Virus record (IMG/VR): IMGVR_UViG_3300032241_000646
Location: 1 to 26,533 of that record
DNA from: a virus
Direction: 5' to 3' (one strand)
Length of the DNA stretch: 26,533 bases
The notes beneath the pieces were generated by a model. The model saw only the letters and a list, made by a program, of their open reading frames with translations. It was not told where the DNA came from and made no database searches. Below, one piece after another: positions 3-17,256 of this stretch; the first letter of the stretch is position 1; every line of letters starts with the position of its first letter. Both the position numbers and the translations under genes were made by a program.

Positions 3-875
3 TTGAAGATGATCGGAGGCGACTATGACGAAAAGGAACTGTTCTCCCGTGTTAACAAGCCAAAACTCATCGCAGATGTCGTAGAGACGTGGGTAAAGCT
101 CGGAGAGAACAGACCAACCATAGGTTTTGGAGTCAACGTAATCCATAGTCAGAGTTTGTGTCATGAGTTTAGAAATAGAGGAATTAGGGCAGAACACATA
201 GACTCATATATGCCTAAAGCAGAGAGAGAGCAAAAAGTAAAAGACTTTAAAGATGGATATATTAAGATATTATTCAATGTCGGCATATTAGATAAAGGGT
301 TTGATTATCCTGAAGCAAGTTGTCTCATTATGGCACGACCTACAAAAAGTCTTATGTTATACATTCAGCAAGCAGGGCGTGTATTAAGAACACACGAAAG
401 TAAGATAGATGCAATAATTTTAGACCATGCAGGTAATACTGAGCAACATGGGTTTGTAACTGATGATTTACCAGAGGAGCTAGATTGTGGTAAGAAAGAG
501 AAAGCAAAAAAAACTGAGGCTAAGAAGGAACACGTTACAATATGTCAATCTTGTGCTTATGTTAAGCCACCTAAGATATTCAAGTGTCCGTTATGCGGTT
601 TTGCGCCAAAGAAAGTTGATACAGGCATTGATACGGAGAAGGGTGATCTTGTTGAGGTTGGCAGAAAGATAACCACAGCAGACAAACAAAAGACATATTC
701 AGAATTACTACACATAGAAATATTCAAACCATACAAGAAAGGATTTGCTGCCAATATGTATCGCAACAAATTTGGAGTATGGCCTAAAGGATTAAAAGAA
801 TATACTTTGACTCCTAGTCCTGAAACACAAAATTACGTTAAATCACGATTAATTGCATTTGCAAAGAGGGCATAA
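3..875 (+). CDS. Superfamily 2 DEAD/DEAH-type helicase, C-terminal half (5'-truncated)
   Basis: This is the C-terminal RecA-like lobe of an SF2 helicase, probably for phage DNA replication or recombination. Frame positions 39-56 hold the motif IV region. Motif V lies near 93-103 (VGILDKGFDYP) and motif VI is QQAGRVLR at 122-129, with the arginine finger region. A Lys-rich linker (about 163-176) leads to a zinc ribbon with C181, C184, C195 and C198. Walker A and B motifs are absent because the N-terminal lobe lies upstream of the window; the TTG at position 3 is not a credible start. The stop abuts the primase ATG. The helicase call is firm. Whether it acts in replication initiation or repair cannot be told from this half. 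Confidence 0.85.
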   Translation: MKMIGGDYDEKELFSRVNKPKLIADVVETWVKLGENRPTIGFGVNVIHSQSLCHEFRNRGIRAEHIDSYMPKAEREQKVKDFKDGYIKILFNVGILDKGFDYPEASCLIMARPTKSLMLYIQQAGRVLRTHESKIDAIILDHAGNTEQHGFVTDDLPEELDCGKKEKAKKTEAKKEHVTICQSCAYVKPPKIFKCPLCGFAPKKVDTGIDTEKGDLVEVGRKITTADKQKTYSELLHIEIFKPYKKGFAANMYRNKFGVWPKGLKEYTLTPSPETQNYVKSRLIAFAKRA

Positions 876-1676
876 ATGTTATTAGAACAAGCAATATCAT
901 ACGCTGAGAGGGGTTGGCACGTTCTGCCCCTACATTCAGTTATCAAAGGTCAATGCACTTGTGGCAAAGTAGGATGCCATAGTGCTGGGAAACATCCACA
1001 GACCTTGAATGGATTAAAGTCTGCTACAACCGATAAGGACACGATTAACACATGGTTTAAACATTGGCCTAAAGCCAACATAGGAATTGCAACAGGGGCT
1101 ATATCAGGTATATCAGTTGTTGATATAGATCCAAAACACGGAGGAGAAGAGAGTTTAGATGAACTTACAAGTAAATATACAAGAATTCCTGAAACAGTCG
1201 AGGCTATTACTCAATCTAAAGGAAGACATATCATATTCCAACATGACGAATCATTCAGAACAACGGCAGGTAAGTTGGGAAGAGGAATTGATACCAGAGG
1301 AGATGGAGGCTACATAGTTGCAGCACCTAGTCAGGGATTACTGGGCAAATATGAATGGGAGGCAAGTTCTGAGCCTGAAAATTGTCCTATTGTCAAAGCT
1401 CCTGAATGGATGTTAAACTTACTCAACGAAAATAGGAATTTAGAGTATGTGGCAGAGAAATTAGGCCCAGGACTTCGAAATGCTTATCTTTGTAGTATTG
1501 GAGGGATGCTAAGATCACGAGGTGTAAGTTATAAAGGTATTGTTTCATGCTTACACGCAGAGAACCTAGAAAGATGTAATCCCCCATTAAATGAGTTGGA
1601 AGTATGGCAAATCGCTAAAAGCATGATGCGTTATGAGCCAAGATTAGACCAAGAAAAGGTAAGGTTTAAAAAATGA
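876..1676 (+). CDS. Prim-Pol type primase with PriCT-1-like C-terminus
   Basis: A 266-residue bifunctional primase/polymerase (PF09250-type archaeo-eukaryotic primase fold), expected to make primers or copy DNA. Seen in the sequence: the N-terminal signature AERGWHVLPLH at 10-20, a zinc-binding knuckle with C27, C29, C34 and the KHP at 39-41, the catalytic VVDIDP with D83 and D85, GRHIIF at 116-121 and GGYIVAAPS at 144-152. Residues 195-255 resemble a PriCT-1 domain (GPGLRNAYL onward). There is no fused helicase domain, unlike the larger phage and plasmid relatives. The upstream helicase gene, which ends directly before this ATG, may supply that activity in trans. It overlaps the next ORF by ATGA. 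Confidence 0.85.
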   Translation: MLLEQAISYAERGWHVLPLHSVIKGQCTCGKVGCHSAGKHPQTLNGLKSATTDKDTINTWFKHWPKANIGIATGAISGISVVDIDPKHGGEESLDELTSKYTRIPETVEAITQSKGRHIIFQHDESFRTTAGKLGRGIDTRGDGGYIVAAPSQGLLGKYEWEASSEPENCPIVKAPEWMLNLLNENRNLEYVAEKLGPGLRNAYLCSIGGMLRSRGVSYKGIVSCLHAENLERCNPPLNELEVWQIAKSMMRYEPRLDQEKVRFKK

Positions 1677-1831
1677 TATTCGTCGATATTGAAACCATAA
1701 TTTTAATGTTTAAAACAACCTACGCACATAGTTATTTGCGTGGAGATGAAGTAGCTAGAATATTAGAGGTTAGATATGGACAAGAAAAACAAAAATCGGC
1801 TATTGATGCCAAAGACAGCGAAGTTGATTGA
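1673..1831 (+). CDS. Small hypothetical protein (52 aa)
   Basis: An open frame of 52 codons whose ATG overlaps the primase stop as ATGA, the coupling used repeatedly in this operon. The protein starts MIFVDIETI, which resembles the first strand of a DnaQ-like exonuclease, but the rest (a helical stretch such as DEVARILEVRYG) does not continue such a fold. No function is assigned. Its 3' end overlaps the following ORF by 56 bases in another frame, so one of the two may be untranslated or misassigned. It could also be the start of a gene broken by a frameshift. Confidence 0.45.
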   Translation: MIFVDIETIILMFKTTYAHSYLRGDEVARILEVRYGQEKQKSAIDAKDSEVD

Positions 1832-2030
1832 TTGGATTAGAAGTGAAATACCTGATGTAAAAGTGTTGTATGCAGAGGAAGGGCAGTATAAGGTAGGAAG
1901 TAGACAGGGTGTATATGTTGAATTTAAGTCAGGAGAAAGTGATGGATTATCTACAAAGCCAAGTAGAAGCAAGCGAAAGATTATACAAAATGATGTTGGA
2001 AGATCACAACCAACGGATGAAGCAAAATAA
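1776..2030 (+). CDS. Small basic hypothetical protein (84 aa)
   Basis: The protein is not recognised. Its first half looks like a compact alpha/beta unit (a helix with LIDWIRSEIPDVKVLY, then strands with QYKVGSRQGVYVEF). The C-terminal third is low-complexity and basic (SRSKRKII). That tail is exactly the part overlapped by the next gene, by 89 bases in another frame. The ordered domain ends near the start of the overlap, so the tail may be a read-through extension under little selection. The ATG at 1776 lies inside the previous small ORF. It is probably translated as part of the replication operon. Confidence 0.55.
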   Translation: MDKKNKNRLLMPKTAKLIDWIRSEIPDVKVLYAEEGQYKVGSRQGVYVEFKSGESDGLSTKPSRSKRKIIQNDVGRSQPTDEAK

Positions 2031-2151
2031 TCTTTTTTATGGAACATTTGATAGTTTGATGAAGAAGTTAGAGGAACGTGACGAAACCATAGAAATGTTA
2101 CGTTACGAGTTAAAACGTATTAAATCAAAGTTAGGATATGAACATGAGTGA
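1942..2151 (+). CDS. Small helical/coiled-coil hypothetical protein (69 aa)
   Basis: The start at 1942 is chosen because AGGAG at 1931-1935 sits 6 bases before this ATG; an upstream ATG at 1909 in the same frame has no comparable site. The protein is almost all helix: residues 1-25 are amphipathic (YLQSQVEASERLYKMMLEDH) and the end is a probable coiled coil (MKKLEERDETIEMLRYELKRIKSKL). It may dimerise. No family is recognised. Its tail overlaps the next start (ATG at 2144). The strong Shine-Dalgarno makes this the best supported of the three overlapping small ORFs here. Confidence 0.65.
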   Translation: MDYLQSQVEASERLYKMMLEDHNQRMKQNNLFYGTFDSLMKKLEERDETIEMLRYELKRIKSKLGYEHE

Positions 2152-2383
2152 GATAAAAGACTTCCCTATGGAAGGTGCAATGATGTCAGATTTAGTAGCA
2201 ATGGAAATTATGGGGGCAATGATAGCCTCTGACTTAGCCAAGAATCTTGAACATCCAACACAACAAATTACGGCTATTGGATTCGCATTTGCCAAAGAGT
2301 TTCTAAAACAACGTGACGAATGGATGAAGCCTAAGAAGGATGAAGAAGCCTACTTAAAAACTCCCACAGTAGTTGTCCCATGA
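2144..2383 (+). CDS. Hypothetical protein (79 aa)
   Basis: An unrecognised small protein beginning MSEIKDF. The ATG at 2144 is preferred over 2138 because TAGGAT at 2132-2137 is correctly spaced only for 2144. The centre is rich in Met and Ala (residues about 9-30, MMSDLVAMEIMGAMIASDLA) and could be an amphipathic helix, followed by a second helix (IGFAFAKEFLKQRDEWM) and a flexible end. No signal peptide or clear membrane span is seen. Its stop overlaps the glycosyltransferase start as ATGA, so the two are likely co-translated. Confidence 0.65.
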   Translation: MSEIKDFPMEGAMMSDLVAMEIMGAMIASDLAKNLEHPTQQITAIGFAFAKEFLKQRDEWMKPKKDEEAYLKTPTVVVP

Positions 2384-3036
2384 GACATATTATGATTGGA
2401 ACTCCCGTCTATGATGGGAGGGTTGAACTTGACTTCATGCAGTCTATTTTTCAAACAATGGAAGTGTGTATGTTAAATGATATACAGTTGACGCTTAAAT
2501 CCGTTATTGGATGTAGTCTCATACAGAAAGCCAGAGATGAATTATTCAGAATGGCGTATGAAGCCAAAGTAGATGATTTAATCTTTATTGATTCTGACCA
2601 AGCATGGACACAAAAAGACTTTGGAAACCTCATTAGCCCACAAGTAGACCTTATTGGTGGTGCAGTTGTTAGTAAAAATGACAATATTCATTACAATGTC
2701 AAAACTTTTGACCCTAAATTTGAATTTGAACATACTTTAATCAATGCTAGGGGTATAGGGTCAGGATTTCTTAGGATGTCTCGTAATTGCATTGAAAAGA
2801 TGTGGGATAACTCAGAAAAATACATGGATGGTAATAAAGAATATCGTCATGTGTTTGAGACTAAAGTGATTAATGGCGAATTAGTAGGGGAAGATGTAGC
2901 TTTCTGTCATAAATGGCGTGAACTAGGTGGTAAGGTATATGTTCACCCTGATATATCAGTAAGCCACATTGGTAAAAAGAGATGGGATGGTAATTTTAAC
3001 GAGTATGTAAGAATCGCAAATCAGGGGGAAGTATGA
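2380..3036 (+). CDS. GT-A fold glycosyltransferase-like protein
   Basis: This 218-residue protein resembles family-2-like glycosyltransferases, which use a nucleotide sugar and a metal ion. Visible features are an N-terminal strand (HIMIGTPVYDG), a DxD-type metal/nucleotide motif FIDSDQ with D71 and D73, a central GIGSGFLRM at 125-133, an acidic pair E171-D172 in GEDVAF that could hold the catalytic base, and a terminal HPDISVSHIG. The acceptor is unknown: modified phage DNA bases, host surface glycans or virion proteins are possible. Placement among DNA-metabolism genes makes DNA hypermodification or exclusion of other phages worth considering, but this is inference. It is coupled by ATGA to both neighbours. 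Confidence 0.7.
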   Translation: MRHIMIGTPVYDGRVELDFMQSIFQTMEVCMLNDIQLTLKSVIGCSLIQKARDELFRMAYEAKVDDLIFIDSDQAWTQKDFGNLISPQVDLIGGAVVSKNDNIHYNVKTFDPKFEFEHTLINARGIGSGFLRMSRNCIEKMWDNSEKYMDGNKEYRHVFETKVINGELVGEDVAFCHKWRELGGKVYVHPDISVSHIGKKRWDGNFNEYVRIANQGEV

Positions 3037-3107
3037 TAGGAATAGCATTGTATTTATTAGGGATAGCAGTAGGCATTTTAGTGGCAATCATGTGGGAGAA
3101 ATGGTAA
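3033..3107 (+). CDS. 24-aa single-span membrane peptide
   Basis: A very short ORF starting at an ATGA overlap, preceded by a strong Shine-Dalgarno (GGGGGAA, about 3 bases upstream of the ATG). The product is MIGIALYLLGIAVGILVAIM followed by a short polar end (WEKW). It is essentially one hydrophobic helix with a small polar C-terminus. Its stop overlaps the next start as TAATG. The ribosome site and double overlap argue for translation. A role in the host inner membrane is likely, but no function can be named. Confidence 0.55.
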   Translation: MIGIALYLLGIAVGILVAIMWEKW

Positions 3108-3424
3108 TGATTACGACTGACGAAATTGAAAGAGCATTACACTTTTTAATTGATTCTGCCAAAGAAGCCGCTCAAAACAGAGCCAATAGAATCTATCTTG
3201 AAGAATACAGAAAGTCATTAAAAGCTCAGATTATGAGCCAGCACCAAGATTTAGCCGTAAATGCTCAGGAAAGAGAAGCCTACAAAAATGTAGAATATAT
3301 TACACATTTAGAGGATATGAAACAGGCTATTTATGAAGATGAAAAAATAAGATTCTTGATTGAAGCCGCCAAAGTTAAGATTTCAGTATGGCAAACAATG
3401 GCTAAATTAGAGGCAAACGTATGA
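3107..3424 (+). CDS. Conserved phage helical protein of unknown function (105 aa)
   Basis: The start at 3107 is chosen because GGAG at 3094-3097 is well spaced and because TAATG overlaps the preceding stop; the in-frame GTG at 3092 and ATG at 3101 fit less well. The protein is all helical: an N-terminal helix (DEIERALHFLIDSAKEAAQNRA) and a long charged helix with the pattern EREAYKNVEYITHLEDMKQAIYEDEK, ending in KISVWQT. This layout matches, from memory, a small family common in podoviruses and siphoviruses beside recombination genes, with no agreed function. The next gene overlaps it by 4 bases. Confidence 0.75.
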   Translation: MITTDEIERALHFLIDSAKEAAQNRANRIYLEEYRKSLKAQIMSQHQDLAVNAQEREAYKNVEYITHLEDMKQAIYEDEKIRFLIEAAKVKISVWQTMAKLEANV

Positions 3425-3762: not shown

Positions 3763-4211
3763 ACATTTTAGGTATTGATCCAGGCTTAGATGGTGGATTA
3801 GCCGTTATTGATGGTAATGCAATTGAATTACTTGAGACGATTCCAAGTGAGCCTAAAAATGGGTTTATTAAACGCCAAGTCAATACCATAGAATTAGCAC
3901 GTATTTTACGCCCATTTAAGGACTCAATTTGCTTCATGGAACAGGTTTCTGCTAGACCTATGCAAGGAGTCAGTTCAGTATTCAGTTTTGGAGACACCTA
4001 CGGCTCGATTAGAGGGGTCTTAGGGGCGTTAGAAATCACTACATACTACGTTACCCCTCAAGTTTGGAAAAAATCGCTTAAAATCAGTTCTAAAGAGGAT
4101 TCACTAAAGGCTTGTCAAGACATATTTGAGTTAGAAAAAATGAAAAAGAAGGATCATAACTTAGCAGAAGCACTTTTAATTGCATATTGGGGTAAAAATC
4201 ATGGCGACTAA
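3759..4211 (+). CDS. ruvC: RuvC-like Holliday junction resolvase
   Basis: A 150-residue RNase H-fold resolvase expected to cut four-way junctions and branched DNA before packaging. Seen: N-terminal ILGIDPGLDGGLAVID with catalytic D7, CFMEQV with E61, and KKDHNLAEALLIAYWG with D132 and E137, the layout of phage-type RuvC proteins. Length is close to that of the bacterial enzyme. It overlaps the DUF1364-like gene upstream by 4 bases and the small terminase gene downstream by 11 bases, so resolution and packaging functions are expressed together. The fold call is firm; branch-junction specificity is assumed from the family. Confidence 0.88.
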   Translation: MNILGIDPGLDGGLAVIDGNAIELLETIPSEPKNGFIKRQVNTIELARILRPFKDSICFMEQVSARPMQGVSSVFSFGDTYGSIRGVLGALEITTYYVTPQVWKKSLKISSKEDSLKACQDIFELEKMKKKDHNLAEALLIAYWGKNHGD

Positions 4212-4761
4212 AGGCTCAAGAATGACTTATGAGCAATGGAAATCTAAATTTTTAGAGGAAGACATAAGCTCAACTTATCCTAGAGAGAAAAGATTACAGG
4301 TTATAAGTGATTATCTTTTAAATCCGAACTTAGCCGAAGTAAGTAGAAAACATGATATTCCTTACGTAACATTGGTGACATGGAAAGATACCGAATGGTG
4401 GATTAGTGCAGCCGAAGAAATGCTTTCTAACTATCAGGAAGAACTAAAGGCTAAACAAAGAAAGATATTAGAGCGCACTTATTCAGAATTGGAAGACCGA
4501 TTAGAGAATGGAGACGAAATCTTTGACAAAGAAGCTGGGCTTGTTAGGGTAAAGGTTAAAGCTAATCACTTAGCAACCATAGCAGATGTCACACTAAAGG
4601 CTAATCAATTATTAAATAATCGACCGACTCAAATTTCTAACGTCAATATAGACTCATTAGCCGATAAATTAAGAGATATAACCTTAAATGCTAGAGACAT
4701 AACCCCTAAGACCGAAGCCCTAGAGGTTAATTATAAAGACATAGACCAAAAAGACAACTAA
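4201..4761 (+). CDS. terS: Probable terminase small subunit (HTH DNA-binding)
   Basis: A 186-residue protein with an N-terminal helix-turn-helix region (about residues 35-65, LNPNLAEVSRKHDIPYVTLVTW), a charged helical middle (YQEELKAKQRKILERTYSELEDRL) and a less ordered tail. This is the plan of phage small terminases, which recognise the packaging site and form a ring. The ATG at 4201 is preferred over 4180 because GGGG about 8 bases upstream acts as a ribosome site. It is unusual in being about 3.4 kb from the large subunit, with an opposite-strand gene block between them. It might instead be another HTH protein. Confidence 0.7.
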   Translation: MATKGSRMTYEQWKSKFLEEDISSTYPREKRLQVISDYLLNPNLAEVSRKHDIPYVTLVTWKDTEWWISAAEEMLSNYQEELKAKQRKILERTYSELEDRLENGDEIFDKEAGLVRVKVKANHLATIADVTLKANQLLNNRPTQISNVNIDSLADKLRDITLNARDITPKTEALEVNYKDIDQKDN

Positions 4762-4775
4762 AGGCTTATTAAAAA

Positions 4776-4949
4776 TCAATCTAACCCGTATGTCTTAATT
4801 TTTCCCTCATAGATATTTTTATGATTTAAAACAATATCAATATAGGGCGATCTCATATAATCAATGTTTTTCTTAACCTCATTTAAATGATTGATTAACG
4901 CTTGTTTATTGTCGCAGTAGTAAACCCCGTTTTTATAAGTAATTTCCAT
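4776..4949 (-). CDS. Small hypothetical protein, last of the leftward operon (57 aa)
   Basis: The start at 4949 is chosen because a GGGG Shine-Dalgarno (plus strand 4955-4958) lies just upstream, overlapping the last codons of the previous gene; a longer in-frame ORF to 5021 would run through that gene. The protein begins MEITYKNGVYYCDNK, probably beta strands, then a helix (QALINHLNEVKKNIDYM). No family is recognised. It ends 14 bases from the convergent small terminase stop. No hairpin terminator is visible between them. Confidence 0.65.
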   Translation of the reverse strand: MEITYKNGVYYCDNKQALINHLNEVKKNIDYMRSPYIDIVLNHKNIYEGKIKTYGLD

Positions 4950-4951
4950 TA

Positions 4952-5146
4952 TTAACCCCTGTAAAATTGATTTTCTTTTCCATTTAATGTAATACCATCT
5001 TTCCACGTTAAGCCAATGCAATAATCATTTAAATGGCATTTAATGAGGTATTGCCCTATTTTATCTTTGATAACCTCATAAGAGGGTGATTGATGGTAAA
5101 CTTTCCCCCCTTTCTCTATAGTCTCTTTAATTTCATTTAAATTCAT
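4952..5146 (-). CDS. Small hypothetical protein (64 aa)
   Basis: This ORF has a strong Shine-Dalgarno, AAGGGGG, about 8 bases before the ATG. The protein has an N-terminal helix (LNEIKETIEKGGKVYHQ), then mixed polar residues and aromatic strands (YCIGLTWKDGITL). It is unrecognised. Its last two codons (Arg-Gly) are the ribosome site of the next gene, whose ATG follows the stop by 2 bases. Operon position suggests an early accessory product. Confidence 0.65.
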   Translation of the reverse strand: MNLNEIKETIEKGGKVYHQSPSYEVIKDKIGQYLIKCHLNDYCIGLTWKDGITLNGKENQFYRG

Positions 5147-5148
5147 GA

Positions 5149-5250
5149 TTAAAACCCCCTTAAATAAGTTAAAACATTAACAATAGAATCAATAACGCTA
5201 GTAATACAAATAATCAATACAAATAAAATCTCGTAAAAGGTTATTTTCAT
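5149..5250 (-). CDS. 33-aa single-span membrane peptide
   Basis: A short ORF whose ATG overlaps the upstream stop as ATGA. The product starts MKITFYEILFVLIICITSVI, one hydrophobic helix of about 20 residues, and ends in a short tail (LTYLRGF). The AGG GGG codons of that tail double as the Shine-Dalgarno of the next gene, 2 bases after the stop. Coding is supported by tight packing on both sides. It is likely an inner-membrane peptide of unknown role. Confidence 0.55.
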   Translation of the reverse strand: MKITFYEILFVLIICITSVIDSIVNVLTYLRGF

Positions 5251-5414
5251 GATACGTTCTCCCAGATCTCCAATTCTTCCTCAACTTTAGCCATAATTGA
5301 GCAAATTTCACTCCATACAGCGTCATATTGCGAATCTACGCCCTCAGGTATACAAGTTTCCCTGTAACTGTGTAAAGCGTTCCATAGGCTCTCCATTTCG
5401 TCTCTAATAATCAT
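5247..5414 (-). CDS. Small acidic helical protein (55 aa)
   Basis: The ORF starts inside the previous stop (ATGA) and ends inside the next start (ATGA). GAGGAAA lies just before its ATG. The product is helical and acidic: MIIRDEMESLWNALHSYRE, then a turn, then DAVWSEICSIMAKVEEELEI, ending ENVS. Two amphipathic helices suggest a small helical hairpin or dimer. It is not recognised. It is too short to be noticed unless the junctions are read. Confidence 0.6.
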   Translation of the reverse strand: MIIRDEMESLWNALHSYRETCIPEGVDSQYDAVWSEICSIMAKVEEELEIWENVS

Positions 5415-5572
5415 AATGTTTCCTCATTTTCCGTAATTTCGTAGTGTTCATCTTCCCAATAATCACAAGTGTAGTTAATATTTTTAGAAGTAAACTCATC
5501 TAGATATAATGAAATATCTTCTTTTGAGCCATCTTCTAATTCTGCAATCAAAGACCATTTAACTATTTTCAT
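5411..5572 (-). CDS. Small acidic hypothetical protein (53 aa)
   Basis: The ATG at 5572 follows AAGGAT by about 5 bases and overlaps the 3' end of the upstream gene by 14 bases. The protein begins MKIVKWSLIAELEDGSKEDI and is rich in Asp and Glu, especially at its end (YWEDEHYEITENEE). The pattern suggests a short beta meander with an acidic C-terminus. There is no recognised family. The stop overlaps the next ATG. Confidence 0.6.
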   Translation of the reverse strand: MKIVKWSLIAELEDGSKEDISLYLDEFTSKNINYTCDYWEDEHYEITENEETL

Positions 5573-5744
5573 TTTTAATCCTTTCTCTTACTTTTTCCAT
5601 TGCGTGTATTGCTTCCAATACTTCTTCATTGTCAGATCTCCATTGCTCATTCCCATATTCTCGATCTTCAAGCCAATATTCCGCGAAATCTATCATTCTT
5701 GTTATAGAATTGAATTCTTCTTGAGTTATTTCAAAGTTTTTCAT
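5559..5744 (-). CDS. Small helical hypothetical protein (61 aa)
   Basis: Starts as ATGA over the upstream stop, with AAAGGGAG upstream. The protein is predicted helical throughout: EEFNSITRMIDFAEYWLEDR and VLEAIHAMEKVRERIKNE, with an acidic middle. It is unrecognised. Its 3' end overlaps the next gene by 14 bases. It is the fifth-last gene of the leftward operon. Confidence 0.65.
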   Translation of the reverse strand: MKNFEITQEEFNSITRMIDFAEYWLEDREYGNEQWRSDNEEVLEAIHAMEKVRERIKNENS

Positions 5745-6016
5745 GCTACTTTCTCCCTTTTTGCTAACAAATCATCTGCGTAAACGCCAATTACAGTCCA
5801 ATTTATACCCTCGTTAGCATCTCTATATTTAATAACACGCCTTAAAACTTCCCTACAATCATCTTCTGATAAATGATATTCAGGATCTAAACAATCGTTT
5901 ACGTCGCTAATATGCCACCAATCACTAACCCAATCAGGGCTAGTTAATCGTAAAATATCTTCTGTTGTAGGTATTTGTTGCCCATTGGGTAAATCTATCT
6001 CGATCATAACTTTCAT
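5741..6016 (-). CDS. Acidic hypothetical protein (91 aa)
   Basis: It has a perfect AGGAGG Shine-Dalgarno (plus strand 6024-6029) 7 bases before the ATG, one of the strongest in the window, so high expression is likely. The protein starts with a strand-like segment (MKVMIEIDLPNG), then a Trp-rich acidic part (DWVSDWWHISDVNDCLDPEYHL) and a helix (EDDCREVLRRVIKYRD), and is clearly net negative. No family is recognised. Confidence 0.7.
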   Translation of the reverse strand: MKVMIEIDLPNGQQIPTTEDILRLTSPDWVSDWWHISDVNDCLDPEYHLSEDDCREVLRRVIKYRDANEGINWTVIGVYADDLLAKREKVA

Positions 6017-6018
6017 GT

Positions 6019-6294
6019 TTAAACCTCCTCTAATTCGTAAACAAGCTCATAAGATAAAACCTTAAAATCATATACACCATCAACCATTAAAGATTTCATC
6101 TCCTCTTCTCCTCCATTGCAATAATAAAATATATGAGTATCAGGCACTCCGTGAGAATCATTACCCCAATCGCACCCCGTATCGTTTTCATAATCAATGC
6201 CAGCATCACCAAAACTAAAATAATAATTTTCTGATGGGTTATAATCACCGTAATAATGAATTGTTGCGTATGCCCCTATTGGCTGTTTATTCAT
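6019..6294 (-). CDS. Strongly acidic, tyrosine-rich hypothetical protein (91 aa)
   Basis: This product has 18 Asp/Glu residues against 3 Lys and no Arg, and 12 Tyr in 91 residues (hand counts), for example NYYFSFGDAGIDYENDTGCD. It looks like a small beta protein with charged loops. Very acidic small phage proteins are sometimes DNA mimics that block restriction or other DNA-binding enzymes, but there is no sequence family here to prove it. The ATG follows AAGGCTTAATT, where the AAGG lies in the last codons of the preceding gene. Confidence 0.68.
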   Translation of the reverse strand: MNKQPIGAYATIHYYGDYNPSENYYFSFGDAGIDYENDTGCDWGNDSHGVPDTHIFYYCNGGEEEMKSLMVDGVYDFKVLSYELVYELEEV

Positions 6295-6296
6295 AA

Positions 6297-6455
6297 TTAA
6301 GCCTTTTCTACTGTAATTTCATCATTGGTTAATTGGATACCATATTCTTCATAAAATATATCTTTTAATCTTTCGATATATTCCTCTTTTGAATTGGCTT
6401 CTAAATTGTTACCGCCAAAAGATAAATTAACTACGCTTGTATATTCTTTTAACAT
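6297..6455 (-). CDS. Small hypothetical protein (52 aa)
   Basis: A 52-codon ORF with AAGGG before its ATG, where the upstream stop codon TAA forms part of the spacer. The protein is MLKEYTSVVNLSFGG followed by a helix (KEEYIERLKDIFYEEYG) and a beta-like end (IQLTNDEITVEKA). No family is recognised. It fills what would otherwise be a gap in the leftward operon, and spacing to both neighbours is exactly 2 bases. Confidence 0.6.
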   Translation of the reverse strand: MLKEYTSVVNLSFGGNNLEANSKEEYIERLKDIFYEEYGIQLTNDEITVEKA

Positions 6456-6457
6456 GA

Positions 6458-6640
6458 TTAAACCCTTTCAATTTTAATTTTGAACAACACCACGCCGTCA
6501 TTTTTTGCTAGATAAATTGTTGCGTTATCGTTATCAATCCATGATGAGGGGAATTCATCACAAAAATTAGTCCCTATGCTCTCATCATTTTCGAATAAAT
6601 AATCGTATACATCATTTAAAACTGCGGAATCAATATACAT
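6458..6640 (-). CDS. Small acidic hypothetical protein (60 aa)
   Basis: Begins MYIDSAVLNDVYDYLFEND after an AAGGG Shine-Dalgarno and a 2-base gap from the previous stop. The first 25 residues are helical and acidic. The end is strand-like (ATIYLAKNDGVVLFKIKIERV). The last codons AGG GTT supply the ribosome site of the next gene. There is no recognised family. Confidence 0.65.
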   Translation of the reverse strand: MYIDSAVLNDVYDYLFENDESIGTNFCDEFPSSWIDNDNATIYLAKNDGVVLFKIKIERV

Positions 6641-6642
6641 AA

Positions 6643-6738
6643 TTAAAACCCTTTCGCATAAATATAAACAAGTGCCAATAAAGAACCAGCTAAAACCATA
6701 AATACAGTGCCAAGTAGGTAATCTATAAATGTTTTCAT
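6643..6738 (-). CDS. 31-aa single-span membrane peptide
   Basis: The ATG overlaps the upstream stop as ATGA. The product begins MKTFIDYLLGTVFMVLAGSL and continues as one hydrophobic helix, ending YAKGF. The AAA GGG TTT codons of the tail are the Shine-Dalgarno for the next gene. This is the same architecture as the 33-aa peptide at 5149-5250, including a Gly-Phe end. It is probably inserted in the inner membrane; its role is unknown. Confidence 0.55.
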   Translation of the reverse strand: MKTFIDYLLGTVFMVLAGSLLALVYIYAKGF

Positions 6739-7067
6739 GCTGTCACCTCTTTATATGCGTTGATGTAATCGACATCATCTTGATGTAATGAGTCAGAATC
6801 TAACTCTAATAGATCGCATAAAAAGCCTTCTTCGCCTGAATATGGTAAGGTATGCCATATATCCAATTTATCGCCATTAAGCATACAAACCTGATATTCG
6901 TTATTGACTAAGAACACATAACCACTATTTTTGTTAAATGCTGGCTTAACTTCCTCTTGATGAAAATCTATTGGAAGTCCATTCTCTACCCAAGCATTGA
7001 GAATCTTAGACAATTCTTTTATTTCACGATAACCAAACTCACCCATATTTTCTGTGTAATAACTCAT
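6735..7067 (-). CDS. Hypothetical protein of a phage/plasmid-type family (110 aa)
   Basis: The start at 7067 is chosen because AAGGGG sits about 7 bases upstream; the longer frame to 7172 would overlap the first gene of the operon. The protein starts MSYYTENMGEFGYREIKELS, then has a helix, then a distinctive core (AFNKNSGYVFLVNNEYQV, CMLNGDKLDIWHT), a phrase seen from memory in unnamed small proteins of phages and plasmids. It ends in an acidic helix. It lacks the Cys residues of a zinc ribbon that some relatives may have. Function is unknown. Confidence 0.7.
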   Translation of the reverse strand: MSYYTENMGEFGYREIKELSKILNAWVENGLPIDFHQEEVKPAFNKNSGYVFLVNNEYQVCMLNGDKLDIWHTLPYSGEEGFLCDLLELDSDSLHQDDVDYINAYKEVTA

Positions 7068-7080
7068 GATAAATCCCCTT

Positions 7081-7371
7081 TTATTGATGGTTAATGTAAT
7101 TAGTGCATAAATCACGTCTACGCTTATCGTATCCGTTTGGCTTGCGTTGCGTGCGTGGATAAATTGTTGCATCTAATGAGAATCCACTATTTTTATCAAA
7201 TTGATTAGATTTAATCAGTTCGTCTTTTAATTGTTGTAAGCGTTGCGTTACCTGATCAATAGTTCCCTCATAATATTCATTATGTATAAAATTCATGAGA
7301 TACTTACTAACCATCTCGGTGCGCTCACAATATGATGCCTTTGAAGCTATAATTAAGAATTGTGTTGCCAT
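7081..7371 (-). CDS. First gene of the leftward operon, hypothetical (96 aa)
   Basis: A promoter-proximal gene with a strong AAGGGGG Shine-Dalgarno before the ATG. The first 60 residues look helical (QVTQRLQQLKDELIKSNQ) and the end is strongly basic (PRTQRKPNGYDKRRRDL), which could bind nucleic acid. No family is recognised. As the first gene downstream of the control region it is likely the most highly and earliest transcribed of the block. A 13-base gap separates it from the next gene. Confidence 0.68.
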   Translation of the reverse strand: MATQFLIIASKASYCERTEMVSKYLMNFIHNEYYEGTIDQVTQRLQQLKDELIKSNQFDKNSGFSLDATIYPRTQRKPNGYDKRRRDLCTNYINHQ

Positions 7372-7420
7372 GATAAAACCCCCTTAAAAAATGTTTGTTT
7401 AACATACACTCCCTCAAGTG

Positions 7421-7448
7421 CATATACACAGTTTACGGAATAAAACAA
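7421..7448 (-). promoter_or_regulatory. Candidate leftward sigma70-like promoter
   Basis: On the minus strand TTGTTT (7443-7448) and TATATG (7421-7426) are 16 bases apart, which would start transcription about 40 bases before the first leftward gene. Each hexamer departs from consensus at several positions, so this is a weak call chosen by position and spacing. Confidence 0.3.
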
Positions 7449-7458
7449 TAAATTTATA

Positions 7459-7473
7459 TAGGGACTTTCCCTA
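7459..7473. repeat. Short inverted repeat TAGGGA-CTT-TCCCTA
   Basis: Six-base perfect arms around a 3-base centre, flanked by TTTATATA copies at 7453-7460 and 7479-7486. It could be an operator half-site pair or a small hairpin. No T-tract follows, so it is not a terminator. Confidence 0.4.
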
Positions 7474-7517
7474 ATGGGTTTATATACAGTAGTTTTATTG
7501 CAGAATCCTGTAATAGT

Positions 7518-7535
7518 TTTAACCTATAGGTTAAA
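7518..7535. promoter_or_regulatory. 18-bp perfect palindrome, candidate operator
   Basis: TTTAACCTATAGGTTAAA is fully self-complementary and lies in the control region away from any gene. Such a symmetric site fits binding of a dimeric regulator. No repressor gene is seen in the window. Confidence 0.5.
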
Positions 7536-7848
7536 GAATCTTAATAAAAATAAACTATTAGGTATCATATATATAGATAGACAATATGAGTGGCTACAAA
7601 ACGCCCCTAAGAATAACTTTTGATTAAACTCTATTAACGATTCCATATAAGATTAAACAATAAGAGATATAAGAGAATATAGGTATAGTAGATAAGAATC
7701 ACTCAATAATGCTATGAGTAATAAAAAGTAATACATACACTCACTCACCCTTAGACAGTCCACTAGATACTTTAAAGCGCCCCCAATTACATACACATAT
7801 CGGACAAATATCTCTATAACCTATTGATTTATATAGAATACCCCCTAC

Positions 7849-7876
7849 TTATCACCCTATTATGCGCCCCTATACT
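7849..7876 (+). promoter_or_regulatory. Candidate rightward promoter overlapping the LexA-type box
   Basis: TTATCA (7849-7854), a 16-base spacer and TATACT (7871-7876) resemble a sigma70 promoter pointing toward the terminase and structural genes. The -10 hexamer lies partly inside the LexA-type box, so LexA binding would block it. Confidence 0.4.
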
Positions 7877-7892
7877 GTGTTTTCTTACAGTA
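7873..7892. promoter_or_regulatory. LexA (SOS) box-like operator
   Basis: TACTGT at 7873-7878 and ACAGTA at 7887-7892 are separated by 8 bases. This matches the CTGT-N8-ACAG consensus of gamma- and betaproteobacterial LexA, including the outer TA pairs. It overlaps a candidate -10 element. It would place rightward expression under host SOS control; binding itself is not shown. Confidence 0.6.
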
Positions 7893-7977
7893 GTGGGGTA
7901 GGGGGAAAAAGATATGAATAAGTATTTTTATAACCCTGTTTCCGACGGCTGATGAAATTTTCAAATCTAAAAGTGTT

Positions 7978-8179: not shown

Positions 8180-9596
8180 TGCAGAACTAATTGAGGGGTT
8201 TGTGAGGGTATTCTTAGCCCCACGTATGGATGCTGTAAAGGCTATTCCTGACTTTCATAGAACACTTTGGGATAAATTTTGTTCTGACCATCCTAGAGTA
8301 GTAGTAGCTGCACCTCGTGGTACGGCTAAGACAACAGCAGTTACTTTCTCTTGTACCCTGGCATCTGCACTCTTTAGAGATAGAGACTTTATACTATTAG
8401 TGTCTAAAACAGAAGGACAGGTAGTTAGGTTCTTGAGTAATATTAAAGCGGAACTTCTGACCAATGCGGAACTAAAATCCCAATTTAAGATAAAACCAAG
8501 ATTTGTAAAGGATACTGAGGCTGAGATTATTGTAGAGTTGGAAGATGGTCACCAGTTCTGTATTATGTGTAAGGGATCTGAACAAGAAGTGCGTGGTCTG
8601 CAATGGAATGGTAAACGCCCTAATTTAATTGTGATTGATGATGCCGAGGGTGCTGAACAGGTAATGAACCCACAAAGGCGTGAAAAGTTCCGTAATTGGC
8701 TATTTAATGACTTATTACCTTCTGGCTCAGAATATTGTAAGGTACGGATGGTAGGAACTGTACTGCACATGGATTCTGCCTTAGAAAGATTACTCAAGGA
8801 TAATCTATGGGACTCAGAAAGGTTCGCTGCCCATAATGAGGACTTTACTGAGATATTATGGCCTGAAAAGCTCCCTAGAGAAAAACTAGAGGAAATACGC
8901 CAATCTTACATTAATCAAGGAAATCCTGATGGTTACTCTCAAGAATATCTTAATAAGCCAATTGATGCAGAAAATGCTTATTTCCACAAAGATGACTTTA
9001 TCCATTCTGATACTCCTGATTATCTTGAATATTATGCTGCCATTGACTTTGCTATCACTAAAAAGACGAAGAGTGACTACACGGTTATTTCGGTGGCTGG
9101 CATGGATCAAGAGGGATTACTTCACGTGGTAGACATCCGTAGAGGTCGTTGGGATGGATTTGAGATTATTGAGAATATGTTTTGGATACAGACCAAATAC
9201 AAGCCTAATCTCTTTATAGCAGAGAAGGGTCAGATTAAACATACCCTAGATGCCTTTTTAAATGCAGAAATGGTCAAACGTGGACAATATATTAATTTAC
9301 ACGCTGTGACTCCAAAGGTAGATAAAGAACAACGGGCTAAACCATTACAGGCTAGAATGAGGTCTGGTGGCGTAAGATTTAATAAAGAACATGGGTATTA
9401 TGCTTCTCTAGTAGATGAGATGCTTGTATTCCCACGTGGACAACACGATGACCAAGTAGACTCATTAGCATATATAGGACTTGCCTTAGACAAAGTAATA
9501 CAAGCACCTTCTCAAGAAGAATTAGAAGATGAAGAATATCAAGAGAAGTTTAGCGATGACCTTTGGGAAGGACAAGGGATGTATACGGGATATTAA
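8169..9596 (+). CDS. terL: Terminase large subunit
   Basis: The ATP-driven packaging motor and nuclease that fills proheads through the portal. Counting from the chosen TTG at 8169 (475 aa): Walker A region AAPRGTAKTT near 47-56, Walker B LIVIDDAEG near 153-161, and the RNase H-type nuclease with D in AAIDFAITKKTKSDYT near 293, E in FIAEKG near 351 and the HDDQVDSLAY acidic cluster near 427-431. TTG is chosen because family similarity starts there (LDAELIEGFVRVFLAPR); an in-frame GTG at 8103 would add 22 unrelated residues lying over the previous gene. The ribosome site is weak. All catalytic motifs are intact. Confidence 0.93.
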   Translation: MKLDAELIEGFVRVFLAPRMDAVKAIPDFHRTLWDKFCSDHPRVVVAAPRGTAKTTAVTFSCTLASALFRDRDFILLVSKTEGQVVRFLSNIKAELLTNAELKSQFKIKPRFVKDTEAEIIVELEDGHQFCIMCKGSEQEVRGLQWNGKRPNLIVIDDAEGAEQVMNPQRREKFRNWLFNDLLPSGSEYCKVRMVGTVLHMDSALERLLKDNLWDSERFAAHNEDFTEILWPEKLPREKLEEIRQSYINQGNPDGYSQEYLNKPIDAENAYFHKDDFIHSDTPDYLEYYAAIDFAITKKTKSDYTVISVAGMDQEGLLHVVDIRRGRWDGFEIIENMFWIQTKYKPNLFIAEKGQIKHTLDAFLNAEMVKRGQYINLHAVTPKVDKEQRAKPLQARMRSGGVRFNKEHGYYASLVDEMLVFPRGQHDDQVDSLAYIGLALDKVIQAPSQEELEDEEYQEKFSDDLWEGQGMYTGY

Positions 9597-16281: not shown

Positions 16282-17256
16282 ATGGCAATCAATGGGTCTA
16301 GTGTAAATAGAGTTACTATTAATGCTCAGGATACGATAACATTAACTCCTACATTATCAGCTACCTCTACTAGCACTAGCACCATCTCTAAGATACTAAA
16401 ATACGTTAGATCACTAACAGTAACATCTACTAGCACATCAAGCATTAATCGATTATTAACGCTATTTAGAACCATATCTGCATCAACCACATCTACAGCA
16501 ACAATAAACCGTTTATTAAGCCTATTTAGGACATTAACGGCCACGGCAAATACATCTACTGCAAGCCTAGTCAAATTACCTATTAAACTCTTATCTGTGG
16601 CTTCTACAAGTACTTCTAGCTTTATTAGGGCTATTAAGAAAACATTTTCTACTATTTCCGAAATGTCTATTGCGGTATTAACAGAAAGTGCGTTTCACCT
16701 AATATTATTGTCAATTACAGAATCAAGTGTAATTACTATTAAAAAGGCTATTTCAGTCACTAAGTCAGCATCTACGACTAGTACTGCATTTATTGTCAAA
16801 CAGGCTAATAAAACCCTGTCTTACGTCAGTACTTCAACCAGTACGTTTATTAAAGCTATTTCAAAGATTATTAGTTATGCTTCTACTTCTACGGCTAATC
16901 TTGTAGCCAAGAAATTTAAGAACGTAATTTTTACCATAACATCTACAAGTACCTCATTTTTAAACAAAACACCTCAAAAGGTATTGTCAGTAGTTTCTTC
17001 AACAATTCCTTCATTAGTCAAGCAAATGTATGTTACTTTTTCAGCAATTTCAGTTACAATAGGGATATTATTATCTGCCGTATTTCCTAAATTAGGGGCA
17101 GTAGCAAGGTACACATTTACTGCTGACTTTAGAAGTAGGGTAATAGTTTTGTATAGAGATAGTATTGAAACTATGGATTTTAGAAATAGATTGATTAAAC
17201 TATATAAACAAAGAACTGTAATTGCTAATTTCATAAAGACTACTATCAAAAAATGA
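16282..17256 (+). CDS. Ser/Thr-rich 19-residue tandem-repeat virion protein
   Basis: A 324-residue protein opening AINGSSVNRVTINAQDTITL. From about residue 25 to 270 it contains some 13 degenerate units of 18-21 residues. Each is roughly LS-x-x-STST-x-x-[IL]-x-[KR] followed by basic and hydrophobic positions; examples are LSVASTSTSSFIRAIKKTF and LSYVSTSTSTFIKAISKI. The C-terminus has two copies of ADFRSRVIVLYRD / MDFRNRLIKLYKQ (281-293, 298-310), a pattern seen in some phage virion proteins. A repeating beta-strand/turn or amphipathic structure is likely. Relatives are uncharacterised, and a neck or fibre-associated role is inferred only from position. Confidence 0.72.
   Translation: MAINGSSVNRVTINAQDTITLTPTLSATSTSTSTISKILKYVRSLTVTSTSTSSINRLLTLFRTISASTTSTATINRLLSLFRTLTATANTSTASLVKLPIKLLSVASTSTSSFIRAIKKTFSTISEMSIAVLTESAFHLILLSITESSVITIKKAISVTKSASTTSTAFIVKQANKTLSYVSTSTSTFIKAISKIISYASTSTANLVAKKFKNVIFTITSTSTSFLNKTPQKVLSVVSSTIPSLVKQMYVTFSAISVTIGILLSAVFPKLGAVARYTFTADFRSRVIVLYRDSIETMDFRNRLIKLYKQRTVIANFIKTTIKK

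Follow-up and report, generated by a model that had tools for sequence, protein, structure and literature searches.

A single-leader array of thirteen small genes in a freshwater phage, probably an accessory locus that evolves by cassette exchange

In a 26.5-kb virus record from a freshwater phage (IMGVR_UViG_3300032241_000646, positions 1 to 26,533; this whole stretch of 26,533 nucleotides (nt) is hereafter the window), plus-strand genes flank a minus-strand block of 13 open reading frames (ORFs) of 31-110 amino acids (aa), which cover 98% of positions 4776-7371 between the genes for TerS and TerL. We name them g1 (start at 7371) to g13 (end at 4776), 5′ to 3′ on the minus strand (Table 1). 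On balance, we favor the view that they constitute an accessory array under one leader, concerned with host interaction and probably with anti-defense, that evolves by cassette exchange. At the level of sequence, the genes are real, their content turns over between related phages, homology between arrays is bounded by gene junctions, the leader hairpin covaries, and genes have been transferred between lineages. In the mechanism we propose, a slot between TerS and TerL in a group of freshwater phages would house translationally coupled small accessory genes behind a single leader, comprising a dyad and a hairpin with a G-rich loop in the 5′ untranslated region (UTR) ahead of the first gene. Each later gene has its Shine-Dalgarno (SD) motif inside or just past the frame before it, and stop and start are separated by 2 nt or overlap by 4; given this coupled spacing of stop, SD and start, we expect joint transcription and translation of the whole set. 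The array would be expressed early in infection, its mostly acidic products may bind host proteins, with many of them neutralizing defense or redirecting the host, and TM-A, the transmembrane (TM) peptide encoded by g3, may be a constant membrane component. Its content would change as cassettes of one or two genes are traded with other arrays by homologous exchange, even where the partner phage has unrelated packaging genes, and the joints would be at the stop/SD/start junctions.

To judge from sequence comparison, the thirteen ORFs are genes, because 10 of the 13 have homologues (g2, g3, g4, g5, g6, g7, g8, g11, g12 and g13) and those that can be tested are under purifying selection. A chain caller recovered on the minus strand 13 ORFs with SD and ATG, 98.3% coverage and 12 tight junctions, as against maxima of 5 ORFs, 20% coverage and 2 tight junctions in 300 dinucleotide shuffles, and it returned 0 on the plus strand. 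The junctions from g1 to g13 measure +13, -4, +2, +2, +2, +2, -4, -14, -4, -4, +2 and +2 nt (+2 six times, -4 four times, -14 and +13 once each). The original prediction, which had described thirteen small opposite-strand ORFs with this near-zero spacing (+2, -4 to -14 and one +13) and strong SDs for nearly all, is borne out on each count, an SD-like motif and an ATG start being present at 13/13; the five ORFs that it listed as shorter than 60 residues are indeed so, and a sixth, 4776-4949, had been missed. It had also made itself dependent on conservation of the reading frames in related phages, and this too is found: besides the homologues, the ratio of nonsynonymous to synonymous substitution (dN/dS) ranges from 0.06 to 0.3 in g13, g6, g5, g7 (Table 1) and g11 (0.30 between the window and the related contig L002), and in g4 and g12 the synonymous sites are saturated and amino-acid changes are far fewer. 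That the strand is opposite to both neighbors might recommend the alternative that the ORFs are spurious and the region an antisense RNA to the packaging genes; however, this is contradicted by the shuffle test, the conservation and the purifying selection on the frames, and we accord it a negligible probability.

Our search with TerL retrieved 32 related contigs, and the TerL/TerS relatives yielded 11 distinct arrays, namely those of the window, L002, L004, L005, L012, L013, L014, L015, L017, L075 and L076. Wherever the TerS-TerL slot is kept (11/11), it holds a small-gene array opposite in strand to the packaging genes, and the gene content differs for the most part from one array to another. 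The window and L002 have TerL proteins that are 94% identical, yet only g3, g5, g11 and g13 are common to both, with order and spacing changed. A single-TM peptide of the TM-A type (28-34 aa) is present in all 11 arrays, as well as in L034-L037; these peptides fall into two blast clusters that, when aligned, are of equal length and motif. A family of 36-81 aa (FHYxLTRAYGRG...SAQQ-like) is found in seven of the arrays and a g11-type TM peptide in three, and across all of them 21 of the 71 junctions are +2 and 15 are -4. Unrelated contigs, too, combine families of the arrays, among them g7, g2, g12, g4 and TM-A. One might read the locus instead as a membrane-acting module for superinfection exclusion or lysis timing built around TM-A, which is the sole constant gene and nearly always second or third from the leader, with the other genes as passengers. 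Against this, most of the genes are soluble and conserved under selection, and in G001 and G004 the lysozyme-like and holin-like genes, read by eye, appear to be located outside the array, so that we deem such a module quite improbable.

The case for exchange is centered on the array of contig L034 (L034:5341-8282). The TerL, TerS and primase of L034 do not match those of the window (best E 0.68), yet its array, which sits behind its own, different leader, has g6 adjoining g7 as in the window, at 82% DNA identity over 495 bp. L034 likewise has three genes at 82-89% DNA identity to L004, one block beginning exactly at the start codon, and g4 is common to the window and L075, a member of another subclade. 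Since L034 combines unrelated TerL, TerS and primase with common array genes, the comparisons indicate that cassettes move between phage lineages whose packaging genes are unrelated; such near-identical cassettes render the assembly of these gene sets directly testable. Ends of homology blocks lie within 20 nt of a start codon in 96 of 156 cases (62%), as against 19% of random positions. The 3′ ends commonly extend through the next SD and ATG, even before an unrelated gene, as in the g11 block between the window and L002, where the final 35 bases, up to and including the next ATG, are the same and the genes beyond it differ.

These observations need to be weighed against a more ordinary explanation, whereby the uniform junctions reflect strong SDs and translational coupling only, the gene-bounded homology is the outcome of whole-gene gain and loss, and the junctions are not special joints. 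Purifying selection alone would end homology near gene ends, and in the window the start context of the array is a loose consensus only: no long start word repeats exactly, and, even with up to 3 mismatches allowed, a single copy of the best junction word, AAGGGGGTTTTAATCATG, is present, its exact form being confined among viral contigs to the L002/L003 records. However, the usual continuation of 3′ homology into the start signal of the next gene runs counter to this explanation, as do two comparisons of start signals. In the 13 nt before the starts, the array genes of the window have a mean of 6.88/13 matches versus 4.34 for late genes with good SDs (p 0.0005). An SD of the GGGG type stands before 45 of 82 array genes, from many families, as against ~12 of 141 genes elsewhere in these phages, in counts that include some related genomes more than once. 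Over 42 arrays, the within-array start similarity is 5.32, as against a maximum of 4.90 in 300 permutations; this could be partly an effect of base composition, which makes the same-phage comparison the stronger test. We hence regard ordinary junctions as an appreciable minority possibility. A more ambitious form of our proposal would be a dedicated cassette-array architecture, akin to a gene-cassette array devoid of an integrase, in which phages of different lineages maintain a one-leader slot, exchange single genes at the stop/SD/start junctions, impose the array's own start signal on incoming genes, and control the set by the constant TM peptide and the covarying hairpin; we consider it rather doubtful.

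The leader hairpin was sought as a stem of at least 5 with a purine-rich tetraloop, 15-35 nt before the first ATG. Under this definition 8 of the 11 arrays, as against 0.09 expected, possess one with a GGGG or GAGG tetraloop, 19-30 nt before the first start. The stem sequences differ and the pairing is kept in all cases, with both-side changes in all five inner pairs. As the rows were chosen for having a stem, this count of pair changes leans towards a hairpin, and it is the 8 of 11 versus 0.09 that constitutes the independent test. The window, G001 and G004 each have one copy of the hairpin before a called gene, and it is at the array. A dyad, TAGGGAnnnTCCCTA, recurs near -100 (-97 to -111) with 0-2 mismatches in eight of the 11 leaders; because 0.57 such sites are expected by chance in the whole window, it is the shared position that counts. 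The leader matches nothing in Rfam. It may comprise a regulated, still putative promoter followed by a structured 5′ UTR. A CsrA-type site was also considered and was rejected, since the loop has no unpaired GGA. Separately, the leaders of L005, L012-L015, L017 and L076 align in a conserved non-coding block farther upstream (TTTGTATAAGGTTTAAT...TTGATATTGCTTAAAAAATAGGCA).

The mobile regulatory cassettes of T4, which reportedly place a promoter and a stem-loop between small early genes, such that non-essential genes are shuffled with the regulatory element at the joints, resemble the array in the shuffling of small genes with joints. They differ in that no internal promoter or terminator was found in the window array, whose hairpin is at the leader only. 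The nearest published parallel to the start signals is the start-associated sequence (SAS) of the cluster K mycobacteriophages, a near-uniform, SD-containing sequence that lies shortly before the start codons of unrelated small non-structural genes, nearly always in the same orientation; it is a fixed word of 13 bp, present 11-19 times per genome (PMC3203893). Similarly, the start signals of the window array precede non-structural genes of many families in the sense orientation; unlike the SAS, they include no conserved 13-bp multi-copy word, with AAGGGGGTTTTAATC as the best case of a looser consensus, and they are stop/start-coupled within one operon. Closer to the SAS than the window is contig L045, a carrier of g7 and other families of this pool: its segment L045:4799-6858 has nine exact copies of AGGAGATCAGAC, each directly upstream of a start codon, and 0 on the other strand. 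This word is a start-associated sequence of an environmental phage contig. In archaeal viruses, unrelated small early genes, several of them proven to be anti-defense genes, share a consensus regulatory sequence (PMC11065993); there each gene has a promoter copy, whereas the array has one leader for all. Phage accessory genes from highly variable regions have been screened in E. coli, and several counter host barriers (PMC12373910). The genes of the window array are likewise from a variable region; the hosts differ. Small-gene variable regions are already known as a kind; what is new here is the architecture, and the original prediction is extended by a TM peptide common to all arrays, a hairpin in the leader, cassette exchange bounded by the junctions, and transfer from one phage to another that is unrelated to it. 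The combination of fixed slot, leader hairpin, coupled junctions and constant TM peptide offers a rule for recognizing short phage genes that standard annotation skips.

As to function, the original prediction of an accessory or host-takeover operon holds in its accessory part; its host-takeover and anti-defense part is consistent with the turnover in a fixed slot, the acidic products (pI 4.1-4.5 in 8 of the 11 soluble ones) and ArdC-containing arrays elsewhere. In L035 and L055 the gene for the anti-restriction factor ArdC (PF08401, PF18818) is at the head of an array that also holds a TM peptide and a g7 homologue. It is likewise part of an opposite-strand operon upstream of TerS and TerL in MW202796, a record with a TerL that is 45% identical. 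Such ArdC-headed arrays, with their TM peptides and g7 family members, are the point of resemblance to the ArdC-type anti-restriction loci known from phages and plasmids, and the window array differs in being without ArdC; the link is one of guilt by association and not proof. These ArdC loci, and the fast turnover typical of arms-race genes, speak against the alternative that the products act mainly to adjust host metabolism, replication or lysogeny, anti-defense not being their chief role. In its favor, no product has a known function, the neighbors in related arrays are domains of unknown function (DUFs) and families of unknown function, and a distant carrier has a PAPS-reductase-like gene nearby; we place it on the unlikely side. 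Under the accessory, probably anti-defense reading, the widely shared families (g2, g12 and g7, in 58, 23 and 22 viral contigs) are good candidates for host interaction or counter-defense.

Several points weigh against the reading we favor. No anti-defense protein was recognized in the window array or the other ten arrays, ArdC belonging to other phages, and any enrichment of ArdC near the array families is putative. Neither sigma-70 promoters nor intrinsic terminators in the array exceed shuffles, and none is strong. No relatives of g1, g9 and g10 were found in the sets searched, and the case for them consists of their SDs, tiling and codon-position composition. For g11 against L004, the shortness of the gene makes the dN/dS values (0.63 and 0.76) weak.

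Table 1. Positions of the small-gene array, its leader elements and its flanking genes in the window
Feature	Positions	Strand	Description
TerS-like gene	4201..4761	+	flanks array, convergent with it; named from position, no PHROG match
g13	4776..4949	-	57 aa; L002 copy 84% identical; dN/dS 0.06
g12	4952..5146	-	64 aa; 23 viral contigs, up to 67% identity
g11	5149..5250	-	33 aa TM peptide (TM-B); 79% in L002, 56% in L004
g10	5247..5414	-	55 aa, acidic; no relative found
g9	5411..5572	-	53 aa, acidic; no relative found
g8	5559..5744	-	61 aa, acidic; phmmer to L034/L004/L039 family, E 2e-5 to 9e-4 (ORF set compiled here)
g7	5741..6016	-	91 aa, acidic; phrog_10258; 22 viral contigs; dN/dS 0.29 with L034
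g6	6019..6294	-	91 aa, acidic; copy in unrelated phage L034 83% identical; dN/dS 0.09
g5	6297..6455	-	52 aa, acidic; L002 copy 79% identical; dN/dS 0.19
g4	6458..6640	-	60 aa, acidic; homologues in L075 array (different subclade) and L053
g3	6643..6738	-	31 aa single-TM peptide (TM-A); in every array of the group
g2	6735..7067	-	110 aa, acidic; family in bacterial phages and a methanogen virus
g1	7081..7371	-	96 aa; AAGGGGG SD; scans for relatives found none
Leader hairpin	7402..7425	-	ATATGCACTT-GAGG-GAGTGTATGT; 30 nt before first start codon
Dyad	7459..7473	-	TAGGGA-AAG-TCCCTA; perfect; ~100 nt upstream of first gene
TerL	8265..9596	+	terminase large subunit; flanks array; phrog_38, E 6.7e-75

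The claim that none of the genes has a recognized function stands, in that the sole match of the ten window ORFs scanned against Pfam and PHROGs is that of g7 to phrog_10258, a family of unknown function (E 9.4e-9, residues 32-86); the ten have no match in NCBIfam, each of g3, g11, g12 and g13 being omitted from at least one library scan, and Pfam, NCBIfam and PDB sequence profiles gave nothing significant for g2, g7 and g12. A weak tblastn similarity of g7 to proteins annotated as DUF1380 (40% over 55 aa, E 6e-3 to 3e-2) was set aside, as 0 of 16 family members match it in Pfam, and the g7 model (pLDDT 76) found no convincing fold in the PDB. The g4 homologue in L053 adjoins a g7 homologue. 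The g2 family (Drs3 ORF37/HTVC034P gp03), whose members g2 resembles along most of its length (tblastn E 1e-22 and 5e-9; identities of 58% to HTVC034P gp03, 48% to BcepSauron 059 and 42% to Drs3 ORF37), includes phages of Pelagibacter and Burkholderia and the Methanobacterium virus Drs3; its 58 contigs come from an alignment-based scan, an earlier single-sequence scan having found nothing. The AlphaFold model of g2 (pLDDT 91.5) retrieved in BFVD only its own family (Drs3 protein, template-modeling score 0.83, E 4e-10), and no clear match in the PDB. A g2 family member of ~130 aa, BcepSauron_059 (L086:3989-4378), is annotated as a serine/threonine kinase, probably a misannotation. In a Mucilaginibacter genome (L172:4995-6367) an ArdC-like gene is closely 3′ of a g2 homologue. 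A g11-type TM peptide has a second home in G004 (reverse complement, 16552-16650), in a different minus-strand operon.

As regards the flanks, the left part of the plus strand has a helicase and a primase, then an HNH gene, a RuvC-like resolvase and the TerS-like gene; the right part runs from TerL through portal and head genes to tail-fiber-like and head-closure genes. By megablast, the whole window has no match in phage records. About 500 bp between the leader and the TerL side (7474-7951) lack a convincing gene, and L002 and L012 have at this place a plus-strand gene of 194-226 aa. Finally, G004 (reverse complement) has the same structural genes at both contig ends, in diverged copies (406-3315 and 42694-45657), pointing to either a circular genome whose assembly mixes strains or a duplication.

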